From Treponema sp. (lineage in GTDB: Bacteria > Spirochaetota > Spirochaetia > Treponematales > Treponemataceae), in the NCBI GenBank assembly GCA_017549025.1, contig JAFYWB010000046.1, positions 1 through 64,000 on the forward strand: a stretch of 64,000 nucleotides of DNA. The letters are read 5' to 3'. Under the pieces are notes generated by a model that did not search any database, had not been told where the DNA came from, and saw only the letters and a program-made list of their open reading frames with translations. Below are positions 23,285 to 32,434 of the stretch, piece by piece (the stretch's first letter is position 1; each line of letters starts with the position of its first letter). The position numbers and the translations under genes are program-made.

Positions 23285-24283
23285 CTACCAAACCTTCCTG
23301 TTACGCAAGGCTCTTTTTAACTTTATGAGCTTGTCGAATCCAGCACCAAGAACATCGACCAGTATTCGGTGTTTAATGGTCTGGCCAATATTCAACGCAC
23401 CGCTCTTTTTATAACACGTTATCCGACGTTTATAGCGCAAACCCCCGGACGGACAAATATAGGTCCACTCATAAATGGCAACACCTAATAGATCCTCTGT
23501 TAAATTTCCGTTTCCATCATAATATTTTATCCGTGCCGTGTTACGATCTGATTCACATTCCAGTTGTGGAGTCAAGCCTTCCGTAGAATAATCCTTGAAT
23601 GAAAGTATAGGGGGGGTGATCGAGAATTTTTTTTGGGTGCATCCCTTATGTACAGACTCGTATTCACTGTAATCCTTTTCCTGTGCATGTCTAAGAGCAC
23701 GGGAATAATCTCTGAGTCCCACCTCTGTTTGTACCAGATGACCCTTTTTATCATAGGCTTTTTCCTGTACCAAATTTCCCTTGTGGTCATACTTGTACTC
23801 GGAGAAACCAATTCCACATATACTCTTATTCTCTGTTGCCTCATAACGTCTTTCTAACACTACATTGCCAGCACTGTCATATTGCCACTCAAGAACTGCT
23901 GTCCCACCATAGTTTTGTGGAAATCTTCTTTTGTTAAAATACCTAGCCTGCACCAGATTTCCACTACCATCATATCCCCACTCATAGATGGCAATTCCGA
24001 TAGAATCCTCCATTAAGCGACCGTCACCCCCATAGAACGATTCCCGAGTCTTCTTACCAGCACTGTCATATTCCCACTTTACAATGGCAATTCCTTTACT
24101 ATCACTGGCCGATCCCAAGCGACCGTCCCAAAGGTCATAATACAAAATTTGTGTCACGTTTCCTGCACGGTCAACCTCCACACGCTTCTGTAGGCTCCCC
24201 ATGGGAGCCTGTATAGAGGAACCACAATAAGTACAAAATGACTTTCCCTCCAATGCCTGCTGCAAACACATCTCGCAAAACAT
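23285..24283 (-). CDS. Zinc-ribbon protein with degenerate YD repeats
   Basis: 332 residues. It opens MFCEMCLQQALEGKSFCTYC, a ribbon whose first knuckle is CxxC. From residue 30 to about 250 it carries degenerate repeats around 'EYDSAGKKTRESFYGGDGRL', 'WGYDGSGNLVQARYF' and 'YKYDHKGNLVQEKAYDKKGH', clearly related to those of the upstream gene but far more diverged. No signal peptide or membrane helix is evident, so the repeats would be cytoplasmic, which is odd for YD-like sequences. The leader (AGGAGGAAAAG then ATG) is identical to that of the two genes upstream, implying copying of 5' ends. Confidence 0.7.
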   Translation of the reverse strand: MFCEMCLQQALEGKSFCTYCGSSIQAPMGSLQKRVEVDRAGNVTQILYYDLWDGRLGSASDSKGIAIVKWEYDSAGKKTRESFYGGDGRLMEDSIGIAIYEWGYDGSGNLVQARYFNKRRFPQNYGGTAVLEWQYDSAGNVVLERRYEATENKSICGIGFSEYKYDHKGNLVQEKAYDKKGHLVQTEVGLRDYSRALRHAQEKDYSEYESVHKGCTQKKFSITPPILSFKDYSTEGLTPQLECESDRNTARIKYYDGNGNLTEDLLGVAIYEWTYICPSGGLRYKRRITCYKKSGALNIGQTIKHRILVDVLGAGFDKLIKLKRALRNRKVW

Positions 24284-24334
24284 CTTTTCCTCCTAAAATC
24301 TCTCCCTTAACAACAGTGACAAAGCTCCTTAGTC

Positions 24335-25591
24335 TCAAAAAATATACAAAATTTTATAGTCAGCATCATAACAACGTGTAACAACCACGTTACCAGCACT
24401 GTCATATTCTCTCTCATAAATAGCAACTCCTAAGTTATCTCCTTTTAGGCGGCCGTCAGCCCCGTAGTTCGCCTTTCTGGTTCTGTTGCCAGCACTATCA
24501 TATTCATACTCATAGATAGCAAAACCATCGCTGTCTTCTTTCAAGTGGCCGTCAGCCCCGTAGGTCGCCCATCGGGTTCTGTTACCAGCACTGTCATATT
24601 CACTCTCAATAATAGCAAAACCATTACTGTCTTCTTTCAAGCGGCCGTCAGCCCCGTAGGTCGCCTTTCTGGTTTTATTGCCAGCACTATCATGTTCCCA
24701 CTCAAAAATAGCAAAACCATCACTGTTTTCTTTCAAGCGGCCGTCAGCCCCGTAGCCCGCCTCTCGGGTCATGTTGCCAGCACTGTCATATTCTCCCTCA
24801 TAGATAGCAAAACCATCACTGTCTTCTTTCAAGCGGCCATCAGCCCCGTAGGTCGCCCTTCTGGTTACATTGCCAGCACTATCATGTTCCCACTCAAAAA
24901 TAGCAAAACCATCACTGTCTTCTTTCAAGCGGCCATCAGCCCCGTAGGTCGCTACTCGGGTTCTGTTACCAGCACTGTCATATTCATACTCATAAATAGC
25001 AAAACCAACACTGTCTTCTTTCAAGCGGCCATCAGCTTCATAACACTCCACTCGGGTCAGGTTACAGTTACTATCATATTTCCGCTTAATAGCATGAACA
25101 CCCTCTTTACGACATAATTCAGTATTCTCTCCGTAATCTCCTATGATATTTCCTTCACTGCCAATCTCCCAGTTGATTTTCTCACTCCCCTGTTGCCAGT
25201 GGATACGGCTAAGTTTAAACAGCTTGTACTCTGCCTCGTAGGTACCTACAGACTTTACTTTTTGTGCCAGTACAGGGATATTCTCATGTACTCCTCCCCA
25301 AGTTAGCTCATTGTAGTATTCCGTCCTGTTACCGTACATCAGGACAACAATACCTGCCACCACTAGCAGTACAACTGCCACTATCCAACCTACCGGGCTC
25401 TTCCTTGCTACAGCTGAACGAGCCCCTAGTGTGGTGCTTGTATCTTGGCTCACCGTTGTGCTTCCACTCACTGGCAGTACTGGTGTAGCAGGGCTTTCCT
25501 GGGTGGACTGTACTAGCTCCTGTCTCGCTCCACAGTGCACACAGAACATATCCCTTGACTCCAGTTCCTTTCCGCAATTATTGCAAAACAT
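24335..25591 (-). CDS. Zinc-ribbon protein with membrane anchor and 32-residue YD repeats
   Basis: 418 residues: zinc ribbon (CNNCGKELESRDMFCVHCG), Pro/Ser/Thr linker, one transmembrane helix at about 67-86 (VGWIVAVVLLVVAGIVVLMY), a short domain, then seven full and one partial 32-residue repeats (171-418) of the form EYDSAGNRTRxATYGADGRL followed by KEDSDGFAIYEW. With the ribbon inside, the single helix would place the repeats outside the membrane. Repeat units are nearly identical in DNA, so copy number may vary. It shares its first 50 residues and its leader DNA with the gene at 25692, while the rest differs completely. Confidence 0.75.
   Translation of the reverse strand: MFCNNCGKELESRDMFCVHCGARQELVQSTQESPATPVLPVSGSTTVSQDTSTTLGARSAVARKSPVGWIVAVVLLVVAGIVVLMYGNRTEYYNELTWGGVHENIPVLAQKVKSVGTYEAEYKLFKLSRIHWQQGSEKINWEIGSEGNIIGDYGENTELCRKEGVHAIKRKYDSNCNLTRVECYEADGRLKEDSVGFAIYEYEYDSAGNRTRVATYGADGRLKEDSDGFAIFEWEHDSAGNVTRRATYGADGRLKEDSDGFAIYEGEYDSAGNMTREAGYGADGRLKENSDGFAIFEWEHDSAGNKTRKATYGADGRLKEDSNGFAIIESEYDSAGNRTRWATYGADGHLKEDSDGFAIYEYEYDSAGNRTRKANYGADGRLKGDNLGVAIYEREYDSAGNVVVTRCYDADYKILYIF
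24410..25081 (-). repeat. 96-bp tandem repeat array
   Basis: Seven in-frame 96-bp units, highly similar (each reads YGADGRLK or a close variant), inside the zinc-ribbon membrane gene. Likely to expand or contract by slippage or recombination. Confidence 0.85.
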
Positions 25592-25691
25592 CTTTTCCTC
25601 CTAAAATTACATGAATAATAAACAGGTTCCTAATACAATCCTTAGGATTATAGAATAAACTTTTGATTCTTGCCCCTATGGCAACCTTTCA

Positions 25692-26306
25692 CTACAACTC
25701 TTCCCTGGACATCGCGGCCAAAAACGGGAAGAATACTAGTAGTATAAAGGTATTTAATGGACCCATGATATTGGGAATAAAATCAGCATGAATTACAAGA
25801 ATAGAAATAGGATAAAAAAAATCCGTCAGCTGACATATAGAAGTAACCCGGGAAAAAATACGAGGCGAAAGCAAAGGACGAAACGGAAATGATAAAATTA
25901 AAGCACCCAAAAGAATGACCATAATAAACAAATTTCCACCAACATCAATGGCAGCTGTCAATAACATACTCAGACCCACCATCGGAGAAGGTTCACTTGG
26001 CAGATCTTCAAGCCCCCCAACAAAGTTCACAAGGGGTTGAAAAACACCCAAAAGCCATAGTATGAAAATTCCCATCACAATCAAATTACGAATTCCTTTA
26101 TTATGCTTCCAGTTGTCTGCCCATGTAGGAGCAGTCACCACCATAGAAGTACTAAATCCCTCTCCAGCCGTTGAGTTTCCTCTTACTGGTGGGACTAGTG
26201 TAACAGGCCTTTCCTGTGTGGGCTGTACTGGTTCTAGCCTAGCCCCGCAGTGTACACAGAACACATCTCCAGTCTCTAGCTCTTTTCCGCAATTTGTACA
26301 AAACAT
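25692..26306 (-). CDS. Zinc-ribbon polytopic membrane protein, first gene of the cluster
   Basis: 204 residues: ribbon CTNCGKELETGDVFCVHCG, a Pro/Thr linker, then about four hydrophobic helices (GIRNLIVMGIFILWLLGVF, a stretch near 115-140 with LFIMVILLGALILSF, a segment near 165 with FFYPISILVIHADF, and a C-terminal TFILLVFFPFLAAM). The N-terminal third is a paralogue of the gene at 24335, and the rest is unrelated, so the cluster mixes one ribbon module with different outputs. AGGAGGAAAAG precedes the ATG. It is the promoter-proximal gene, 51 bp from the repeat at 26357 that contains a leftward TATAAT. Confidence 0.72.
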   Translation of the reverse strand: MFCTNCGKELETGDVFCVHCGARLEPVQPTQERPVTLVPPVRGNSTAGEGFSTSMVVTAPTWADNWKHNKGIRNLIVMGIFILWLLGVFQPLVNFVGGLEDLPSEPSPMVGLSMLLTAAIDVGGNLFIMVILLGALILSFPFRPLLSPRIFSRVTSICQLTDFFYPISILVIHADFIPNIMGPLNTFILLVFFPFLAAMSREEL

Positions 26307-30154: not shown

Positions 30155-32221
30155 TTACAGCTGGATGTTGGAGATGGAATCTTTAATAGCAGTAGAGGTA
30201 TTTCGCAGCTGCTCCACCGCCATCACCACATTGTCTGTGTTATCCTTCATTACCTTCAAGGAATTCAAAAGAATTTTTCCACTGTCCGTTTGCTCAGATA
30301 TGGCATTTTTCACCACATCCTCTTGTTTTTTCACATCATCAGAAAGGGAAACAATCTTTTGCATTTCATTCTTAACAAGATCCATCTTGGAGAAGGTTGA
30401 GTCAATCAATTTCTTAATATTCAACAGAACAACAGAAATCATCTTTGCTTCTTTTCCAGAGCTTTCTGCCAACTTACGGATTTCATCGGCTACAACGGCA
30501 AAGCCCATTCCTGATTCTCCAGCATGAGCAGCTTCTATGGCAGCGTTCATGGCCAACAAGTTTGTCTGATTTGCTACCTGCTGAATCACCTTGCTCATTT
30601 CCGTCAAGCCCTTTGATTCCATTTCAATGTTATTCACCAATGCAGAAATTTCAGCAATCTCGCTATAACCAAGATTTGTCTCCTGCACCAAGGAATTCAT
30701 GGCTTGCTGCTTATCATGAAGAATACTATTGATGGATTCAATATTTTCAATCATCTGCTCTACGGCTGCGGCAGAAGTGCTTACACAAGAAGCCATCTTA
30801 TCAGAAACCTGCTTTACACTATCAATCTCGTTATTATTTTCCACGATATGTTTAATAGTGGTGCTTTTTACGCTATCAACCGCAGTATGAATTTGAGAAA
30901 CATGCTCTTTCTGCATATATTCAATCTGCTTTGTCTTGTAGGTATGACAATTTTCCAATTTATTCAAGTTATTATAAATCGCCATTGCCATTAATTCACA
31001 TTTTTCATACCCACAGGCACCGCAGTCTAGAATGTCAGCGGGAGAAGTTTTGTGCATCTTTTCAAAGATTTTCTGAATTTCGGCCTTACTAGGAGTTTTT
31101 ATCCTTGAAGTAAGGAGATTGCTTTTATTGGTGTACTTTCTTGTGTATAAATCCGGTGTCCAATATTTACTAATCACCTTATCAAGCTTTTTCAGCGAGC
31201 TCTTTTTATTGCCAGTAGTTTTATAAAAGGATTTTTGCAAAGCCTTTCGCTGTTCTACATAGCCTTCCATTTCATCAAGGCCCATGTGCTTTGTATCAGT
31301 TCCAGCTCCACCGTTACAGCCAGCCTTACAATTCAAGCAGTCAATAAGCATGTACAGCGGCTTTTTCTGCTGCTTCATGTTTTCTGACAATTCATCAAAA
31401 TACTCGTACACCTCAGGAGAGCCTTCTATCTTTCTGATTGACGATGAAATTGAAGGAACAAAGCGTTCGGCAGTCTGCATAAGTCCACCAGGAGAAGAAT
31501 ACATAACTGCTCGCTCAGCTTCGGGATTATCATAGGGTACCTTTGGATATCGTGAAAGGTTAATATTATTTTCCCGCAGATAATCTGCAATAGATTTCAT
31601 GGAAATATTGTAGTCACCTAATTTAATATCATCATATTCCCGCTGTTTAGCATAACAGGGAGAAATAACAGCGATTTTATGGTTCTTGTATTTGGGATAA
31701 AACTTTTTAATCATCTTCATGGTGTGAGCCATAGGACTATCGCAAGGTGCAAGGTATTTTAATAAATCTGGCTTATAAATCTCACAATAAGAAACAATAG
31801 CAGGACAAGGCTGAGCAATCATCAGCTGGGGCTTATTTGATTTGATATGCTCCACGTAGGATTTTGTGGTTAATTCTGCTCCAAAGCTTACATCAAAAAC
31901 AGCCTCCACTCCAAGAGACTTCAAAAAGCCGTTAAATTCTTTATCCATGCCTCTAAAAGAAACAATTACCGCAGGAGCAACAATGGCAATCATCTTTTCT
32001 TTCTTTACATCATTCATGAATCGGGCAAAACTATCCACACCTGTTCTGGCTCCATGCTCACAGGATTCAATGCATTTTCCACAACCAAGACACAAATCAT
32101 GGTTAATGGAAACATAAGATCCAGACCCATCATTACAGATTTTTACTGGGCAAACAGCAATACAGCGATGGCAATTTACACATTTTTCTTGGTCAACATA
32201 AATGACGGGAGTTAAAGACAT
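30155..32221 (-). CDS. [FeFe]-hydrogenase-like sensor fused to chemoreceptor signalling domain
   Basis: 688 residues, no membrane helix. Two ferredoxin [4Fe-4S] motifs (C14-C17-C20-C24 and C44-C47-C50-C54) are followed by an [FeFe]-hydrogenase large-subunit-like domain. The H-cluster loops appear as Cys139 in QPCPA, Cys189 in ISPCYAK and Cys298/Cys302 in [12 protein letters not shown] further Fe-S motif, CGACGYEKC plus Cys425 (C400-C425), leads to an MCP domain (about 440-688) with the conserved tip [18 protein letters not shown]. The loops differ from those of catalytic HydA and resemble sensory (group C) enzymes. Likely role: soluble detection of H2 or redox state, signalling to CheA/CheW. 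Confidence 0.88.
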
Positions 32222-32434
32222 AGAGTACCTACAGAAAATATTTGGTTGGAATATATAAATTTATTGTAAGATTGCCCACCAGCTTTTGTCAAGGAAAATA
32301 TAATATTGAAGGAAATGAGCTTTTAATCACGCTTATTTGATGAAAATATTGTAAAAATAAAATAAGGAAAATGAGTTGAAGTGTACTAAAAATCTAAAAG
32401 CAATTTTTAGTACACTTCCGATTTTTTAACCAGT

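Follow-up and report, generated by a model that had tools for sequence, protein, structure and literature searches.

Sensory [FeFe]-hydrogenases and their putatively chemotactic relatives

In the HydDB classification of 2016, [FeFe]-hydrogenases of group C2 were listed as "chemotactic (putative)", the subtypes being described by their co-transcribed regulatory elements (PMC5037454). Group C2 links a sensory-type H-domain to a methyl-accepting chemotaxis protein (MCP), and the same association is found in a gene of Treponema sp. described here, although in this gene the MCP part is fused in one chain. The gene lies within a stretch of 64,000 nucleotides that was analysed as a whole and is called the window below. 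Judged by description and MCP association, the fusion is of the group C2 kind; this kind of protein was predicted earlier and is common in these bacteria. An earlier note on the same DNA had called the coupling between sensory hydrogenases and chemotaxis little characterised. As regards function this stands, as the literature search found no functional study of any MCP-fused hydrogenase and no H2 chemotaxis via a hydrogenase-receptor, but the kind itself had by then been named in HydDB.

In sensory enzymes the residues C299, M353 and M497 are replaced (PMC10055695, PMC8163306), about 10% of the sequences of this type having Pro at the C299 position (PMC10055695), and a four-cysteine motif of the spacing Cx2Cx4Cx16C is known from HydS proteins of groups C and D (PMC8163306). 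TmHydS from Thermotoga maritima (group C, M2f) shares with the fusion the H-cluster ligands, the replacement of all three residues and the C-terminal four-cysteine motif; however, it carries Ala, Gly and Ser at C299, M353 and M497 together with a PAS domain, whereas the fusion has Pro, Ser and Leu at these sites, lacks a PAS match and carries an MCP domain. Tam HydS from Thermoanaerobacter mathranii (group D, M2e) shares the lack of a PAS domain, the two N-terminal clusters, the Cx2Cx4Cx16C motif, and Ser and Leu at M353 and M497, and with these two residues it holds an H-cluster (PMC8163306). This protein is without an output domain, while the fusion ends in a chemoreceptor hairpin. In a study of Clostridium acetogens, group C2 candidates were dropped at the steps that confirm a hydrogenase, a caution that is inapplicable to the fusion because its ligands are present.

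A close homologue of the fusion (L147/L151) is encoded by a genome from the same order that consists of one contig of 4,059,867 bases. "Hydrogen sensors", which like the fusion are spirochaete H-domain sensor proteins, were reportedly described in termite-gut treponemes by Ballor, Paulsen and Leadbetter in 2012 (doi 10.1007/s00248-011-9922-8), and possible chemotaxis is said to be mentioned in the abstract of that work.

Architecture and ligand residues of the fusion

The gene occupies positions 30155-32221 of the window on the minus strand, which also carries the parts of the gene listed below, and its ORF, with an ATG start and no internal stops, encodes a soluble [FeFe]-hydrogenase-MCP fusion of 688 aa according to the ORF list and the Pfam architecture. 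The earlier note had read the gene as encoding a soluble protein in which a sensory [FeFe]-hydrogenase-like part is joined to an MCP signalling domain. Pfam and the alignments agree with this, and its ORF, domain order and every residue number proved correct against the ORF list, Pfam and the sequence. It had also claimed that a membrane helix is absent, which is confirmed by a mean hydropathy that peaks at just 1.09 over 19 residues in the 688-aa protein.

At the N-terminus, two [4Fe-4S] ferredoxin motifs (C14/17/20/24 and C44/47/50/54; 32060-32182) lie in the Pfam Fer4 repeats of residues 6-59 and are kept in 46 homologues. They are followed by the H-domain (Fe_hyd_lg_C, residues 76-306; 31304-31996), with a Pfam E-value of 7.9e-36 and HDCR HydA2 (7qv7) as its best PDB sequence match. 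Between the H-domain and the output domain sits the Cx2Cx4Cx16C [4Fe-4S] motif (C400/C403/C408/C425; 30947-31030), matched by the Pfam FeS family PF04060 at residues 398-425 with E 2.4e-5. The C-terminal part, residues 430-688 (30158-30934), is an MCP signalling domain forming an antiparallel coiled coil, identified by Pfam MCPsignal (residues 515-671, E 6.2e-28) and by chemoreceptor chains in the PDB search. Its CheA/CheW-binding hairpin tip (30512-30571) is canonical in sequence, and the tip residues are conserved in the alignment.

The three H-cluster loops were placed by profile alignment (hhalign) with the genome's own catalytic HydA (C71), in which AQPCP of the fusion pairs with TSCCP, SPCYAK with MPCTAK (within MPCTAKKYE) and CLNCKAGC with VMACRGGC. 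Loop L1 (31802-31816) carries C139, equivalent to CpI C300, and Pro138 at the proton-relay position of CpI C299; loop L2 (31637-31663) carries C189 and, as K192 and E195, the Lys and Glu of the MPCxxKxxE motif, with Ser187 in place of CpI M353; and loop L3 (31316-31339) carries C298 and C302, with Leu296 in place of CpI M497. This pairing identifies C139, C189, C298 and C302 as true H-cluster positions, so that the assignment of these cysteines to the H-cluster, made in the earlier note, is upheld by alignment with a catalytic hydrogenase. In an alignment of 46 sequences, C139, C189, E195, C298, C302 and C400/C403/C408/C425 are invariant, while K192 is conserved in at least 90%. Judged from these alignments, the active-site substitutions of the fusion are of the sensory type, and the pattern of domains and ligands is far beyond chance.

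The fusion was not filed as a PAS-type HydS, since no PAS domain was matched by Pfam up to E 1. No strict consensus motif for methylation sites was found in the protein, which has a single loose match, AAAVEQ, at residue 484. An AlphaFold model built from three sequences reached a pLDDT of 45 and a pTM of 0.34, too poor for active-site geometry.

The gene stands alone between functionally unrelated genes and looks like a single transcription unit; its neighbours, as read from the sequence, are a peptidase of the oligopeptidase F type downstream and a zinc metallopeptidase upstream. A promoter-like site, TTGACA-18-TACAAT (32263-32292; 11/12 in a consensus scan), ends about 40 bp 5' of the ATG and is preceded by a strong terminator-like hairpin, both being consensus matches only. 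Elsewhere in the window, at 23285-26306 on the minus strand, three adjacent proteins carry an N-terminal zinc-ribbon-like FCxxCG motif, two of them with tandem YEYDSAGN...YGADGRLKED repeats.

Maturases, chemosensory partners and other H-domain sensors of the genome

The source genome (G000) has 2.48 Mb and is 99.99% complete. The search for maturase genes had been set beforehand in the earlier note as the main point on which its reading could fail, and hydG, hydF and hydE were found consecutively at C3:27935-31683, with all three products above the cut-off (HydG 874, HydF 466 and HydE 346 bits). The genome also holds two chemosensory gene sets, with CheA/CheW plus CheB and CheR. The set on C39 encodes CheA and a CheW-CheR protein, while the second (C30:63893-70320), which starts just before the window ends, encodes CheW, CheW, CheY, CheB and a CheW-domain protein that, with 727 aa, has the length of a CheA. 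With the maturases and both chemosensory sets encoded, the parts needed by the pathway proposed below exist in the cell; these genes, like the domain order and the ligand sets, are read directly from the DNA.

Three kinds of H-domain sensor output are found in this genome, namely the fusion, a long GGDEF/EAL protein and a region with a SpoIIE-type phosphatase. The second sensor (L007:1-2442, on C8, minus strand) combines two ferredoxin motifs, Fe_hyd, FeS, GGDEF and EAL, the last two domains indicating output via cyclic di-GMP; in this protein an Asp replaces the L2 lysine (SPCIAD), and similar long proteins are found in many relatives. The third (L004 and L005, on C49) brings together a group B hydrogenase, a HydS-like PAS protein and the SpoIIE-type phosphatase in one region, and resembles the arrangement of HydDB group C3.

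Relatives of the fusion and their linkage to maturase genes

A scan of public genomes for close relatives returned three Treponema MAG loci of the same architecture, one of them frameshifted, and the nearest named relatives that it found are Treponema MAGs. Within the family, the fusion is present in 75 of 195 genomes (strong partial matches counted), and all 46 of the diverse full-length members that were aligned contain Fe_hyd_lg_C as well as MCPsignal. In 33 genomes of the family the fusion occurs together with HydG, and in six of these (G090, G101, G163, G176, G181 and G191) hydG, hydF and hydE are all found at most 6 kb from the fusion gene. Under random placement, six such linkages have a chance of about 4e-8, the six being not fully independent because G176 and G191 are close relatives, with near-copies in the tree.

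The H-domain family of the fusion extends to many other families of Spirochaetota. Outside the family, HydG was detected in 32 of the 39 genomes with this H-domain family, and in 50 of the 86 genomes whose strong H-domain match was of another kind (P = 0.014), a comparison in which the presence of the MCP domain was read in only three of the outside-family copies. The closest protein among those compared with the fusion is L149 (G251:C75), from a different family of the phylum, at 60% identity, versus at most 57% for copies from the family of the fusion itself. That a copy in another family is nearer to the fusion than those of its own genus suggests possible horizontal transfer or old paralogy.

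Several genomes also encode paralogues of about 650 aa whose hairpin tip has diverged to TKIIAFNAELEA (L058, L066, L079, L080:5955-7910 and L085), and which may depart from the usual mode of CheA binding. A paralogue of this kind stands immediately before the canonical copy in G118 and before a contig-truncated copy in G194.

Treponemes that carry the receptor without maturases

Of the 75 genomes of the family that carry the fusion, 42 have no HydG; 21 of these reach a completeness of at least 95% and are also devoid of HydF. A re-search with lax settings covered 33 genomes, namely two positive controls and 31 HydG-negative genomes, of which 29 are at least 90% complete. Both controls gave HydG and HydE; among the 31, no HydG exceeded the cut-off, ThiH-strength matches were seen in a few and HydE was found in one (G179). 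In the tree, genomes with and without HydG are interspersed, and the well-supported branches require at least 14 switches between the two states. Taken together, the 42 HydG-negative genomes and the results of the re-search make the link between the receptor and standard maturation a loose one in this family.

A difference in motifs between HydG-positive and HydG-negative genomes was looked for and not seen, as the fusion has identical H-cluster motifs in both. The idea that maturase absence marks the receptor as something other than an H-cluster protein was also considered and set aside, since catalytic hydrogenases of the same genomes are intact and yet maturase-free too: the catalytic group A hydrogenases sampled in HydG-negative genomes, and most of the sampled group B enzymes, have full motifs. 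The lack of HydEFG is then no sign of cofactor loss in the receptor and, being common to many treponemes, does not by itself count against it. Near-complete genomes with an intact group A/B hydrogenase and/or receptor and no HydG, HydF or HydE include G015, G032, G049, G078, G089, G099 and others, the loci behind this observation being L127-L146. That treponemes bear the receptor without maturases is a new observation. We suggest, very tentatively, that these bacteria use an unknown route of H-cluster assembly, or that their conserved H-domains, including that of the receptor, work in vivo with a different or partial cofactor.

Proposed mechanism and alternative explanations

We propose that the fusion acts in the cytoplasm as an H2/redox receptor with CheA as its signalling partner, and give this reading a probability of about 0.65. 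It draws on the presence of both domains in all the aligned relatives; on H-cluster ligands, K192 and E195 that are kept while C299, M353 and M497 are replaced; on the genome's own hydG-hydF-hydE, the six close linkages and the excess of HydG outside the family; and on the canonical MCP tip together with two chemosensory systems. Counted against it are the HydG-negative majority, the near-copies among the linked genomes and the missing strict methylation motif. In the pathway that we infer, which takes in the occupancy of the H-cluster, H2 as the ligand, the electron route and the sign of the response, the [2Fe] part of the H-cluster would be put in place by HydG, HydE and HydF, whose genes lie elsewhere in the genome. 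H2 would bind to the H-cluster or be slowly oxidised there, altering the charge of the cluster chain, whose two N-terminal [4Fe-4S] clusters would swap electrons with the ferredoxin pool. The Cx2Cx4Cx16C cluster, situated where the MCP coiled coil begins, would receive the redox change and pass it on through coiled-coil packing to the activity of CheA at the hairpin tip, and the output of CheA would bias flagellar motion by H2 or by an H2-coupled redox state.

Redox taxis without H2 specificity is the main rival to this proposal. The protein would then be a general cytoplasmic redox or energy-taxis receptor, its H-domain reading the reduction of the ferredoxin pool, via the H+/H2 equilibrium or with the cubane alone, and H2 gas would not be the relevant ligand. 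A soluble, cytoplasmic receptor in which three [4Fe-4S] clusters flank the H-cluster fits such a role, and so do the loss of the catalytic proton-relay Cys (P138) and the many maturase-free relatives that retain the receptor. It is harder to reconcile with the retention, in almost every member, of K192 and the bridging-type C302, the residues by which catalytic enzymes hold the [2Fe] part, and with the clustering of hydEFG in six genomes, and we regard it as possible but unlikely.

A different use of the H-domain, with its [4Fe-4S] half only, would make the protein an Fe-S sensor that responds to oxygen, to nitric oxide or to redox stress in HydEFG-negative treponemes, and possibly here. The 42 of 75 genomes without HydG speak for it, as does the re-search of 31 of them with its single HydE and no HydG over the cut-off; the window's genome, however, has all three maturases, and the group A/B hydrogenases sampled in maturase-negative genomes keep intact motifs, so that this explanation appears improbable. 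Least probable by far is that a sensory hydrogenase has here become a relic, degenerate or unable to signal: although the literature found gives no ligand or output for any member, the ORF is intact, the ligand and tip residues are invariant across 46 diverse homologues and the protein is present in many spirochaete families. The H2/redox receptor signalling through CheA is the reading preferred here, and the interpretation given in the earlier note is, overall, partly supported.

Significance for treponemes and other spirochaetes

The fusion is best seen as a further member of a known putative kind, for which the gene content of this genome offers good local support as to a predicted function. 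Taxis by a receptor based on a [FeFe]-hydrogenase is a database prediction, and the literature search found no test of it. A separate question, accessible to biochemistry, is raised by the absence of maturases from over half of the family genomes that bear the receptor. The receptor gene family is widespread in spirochaetes and stands beside maturase genes in several genomes. If the proposal is true, the receptor would couple the steering of the cell directly, at the molecular level, to H2, which is a central gas of anaerobic guts.
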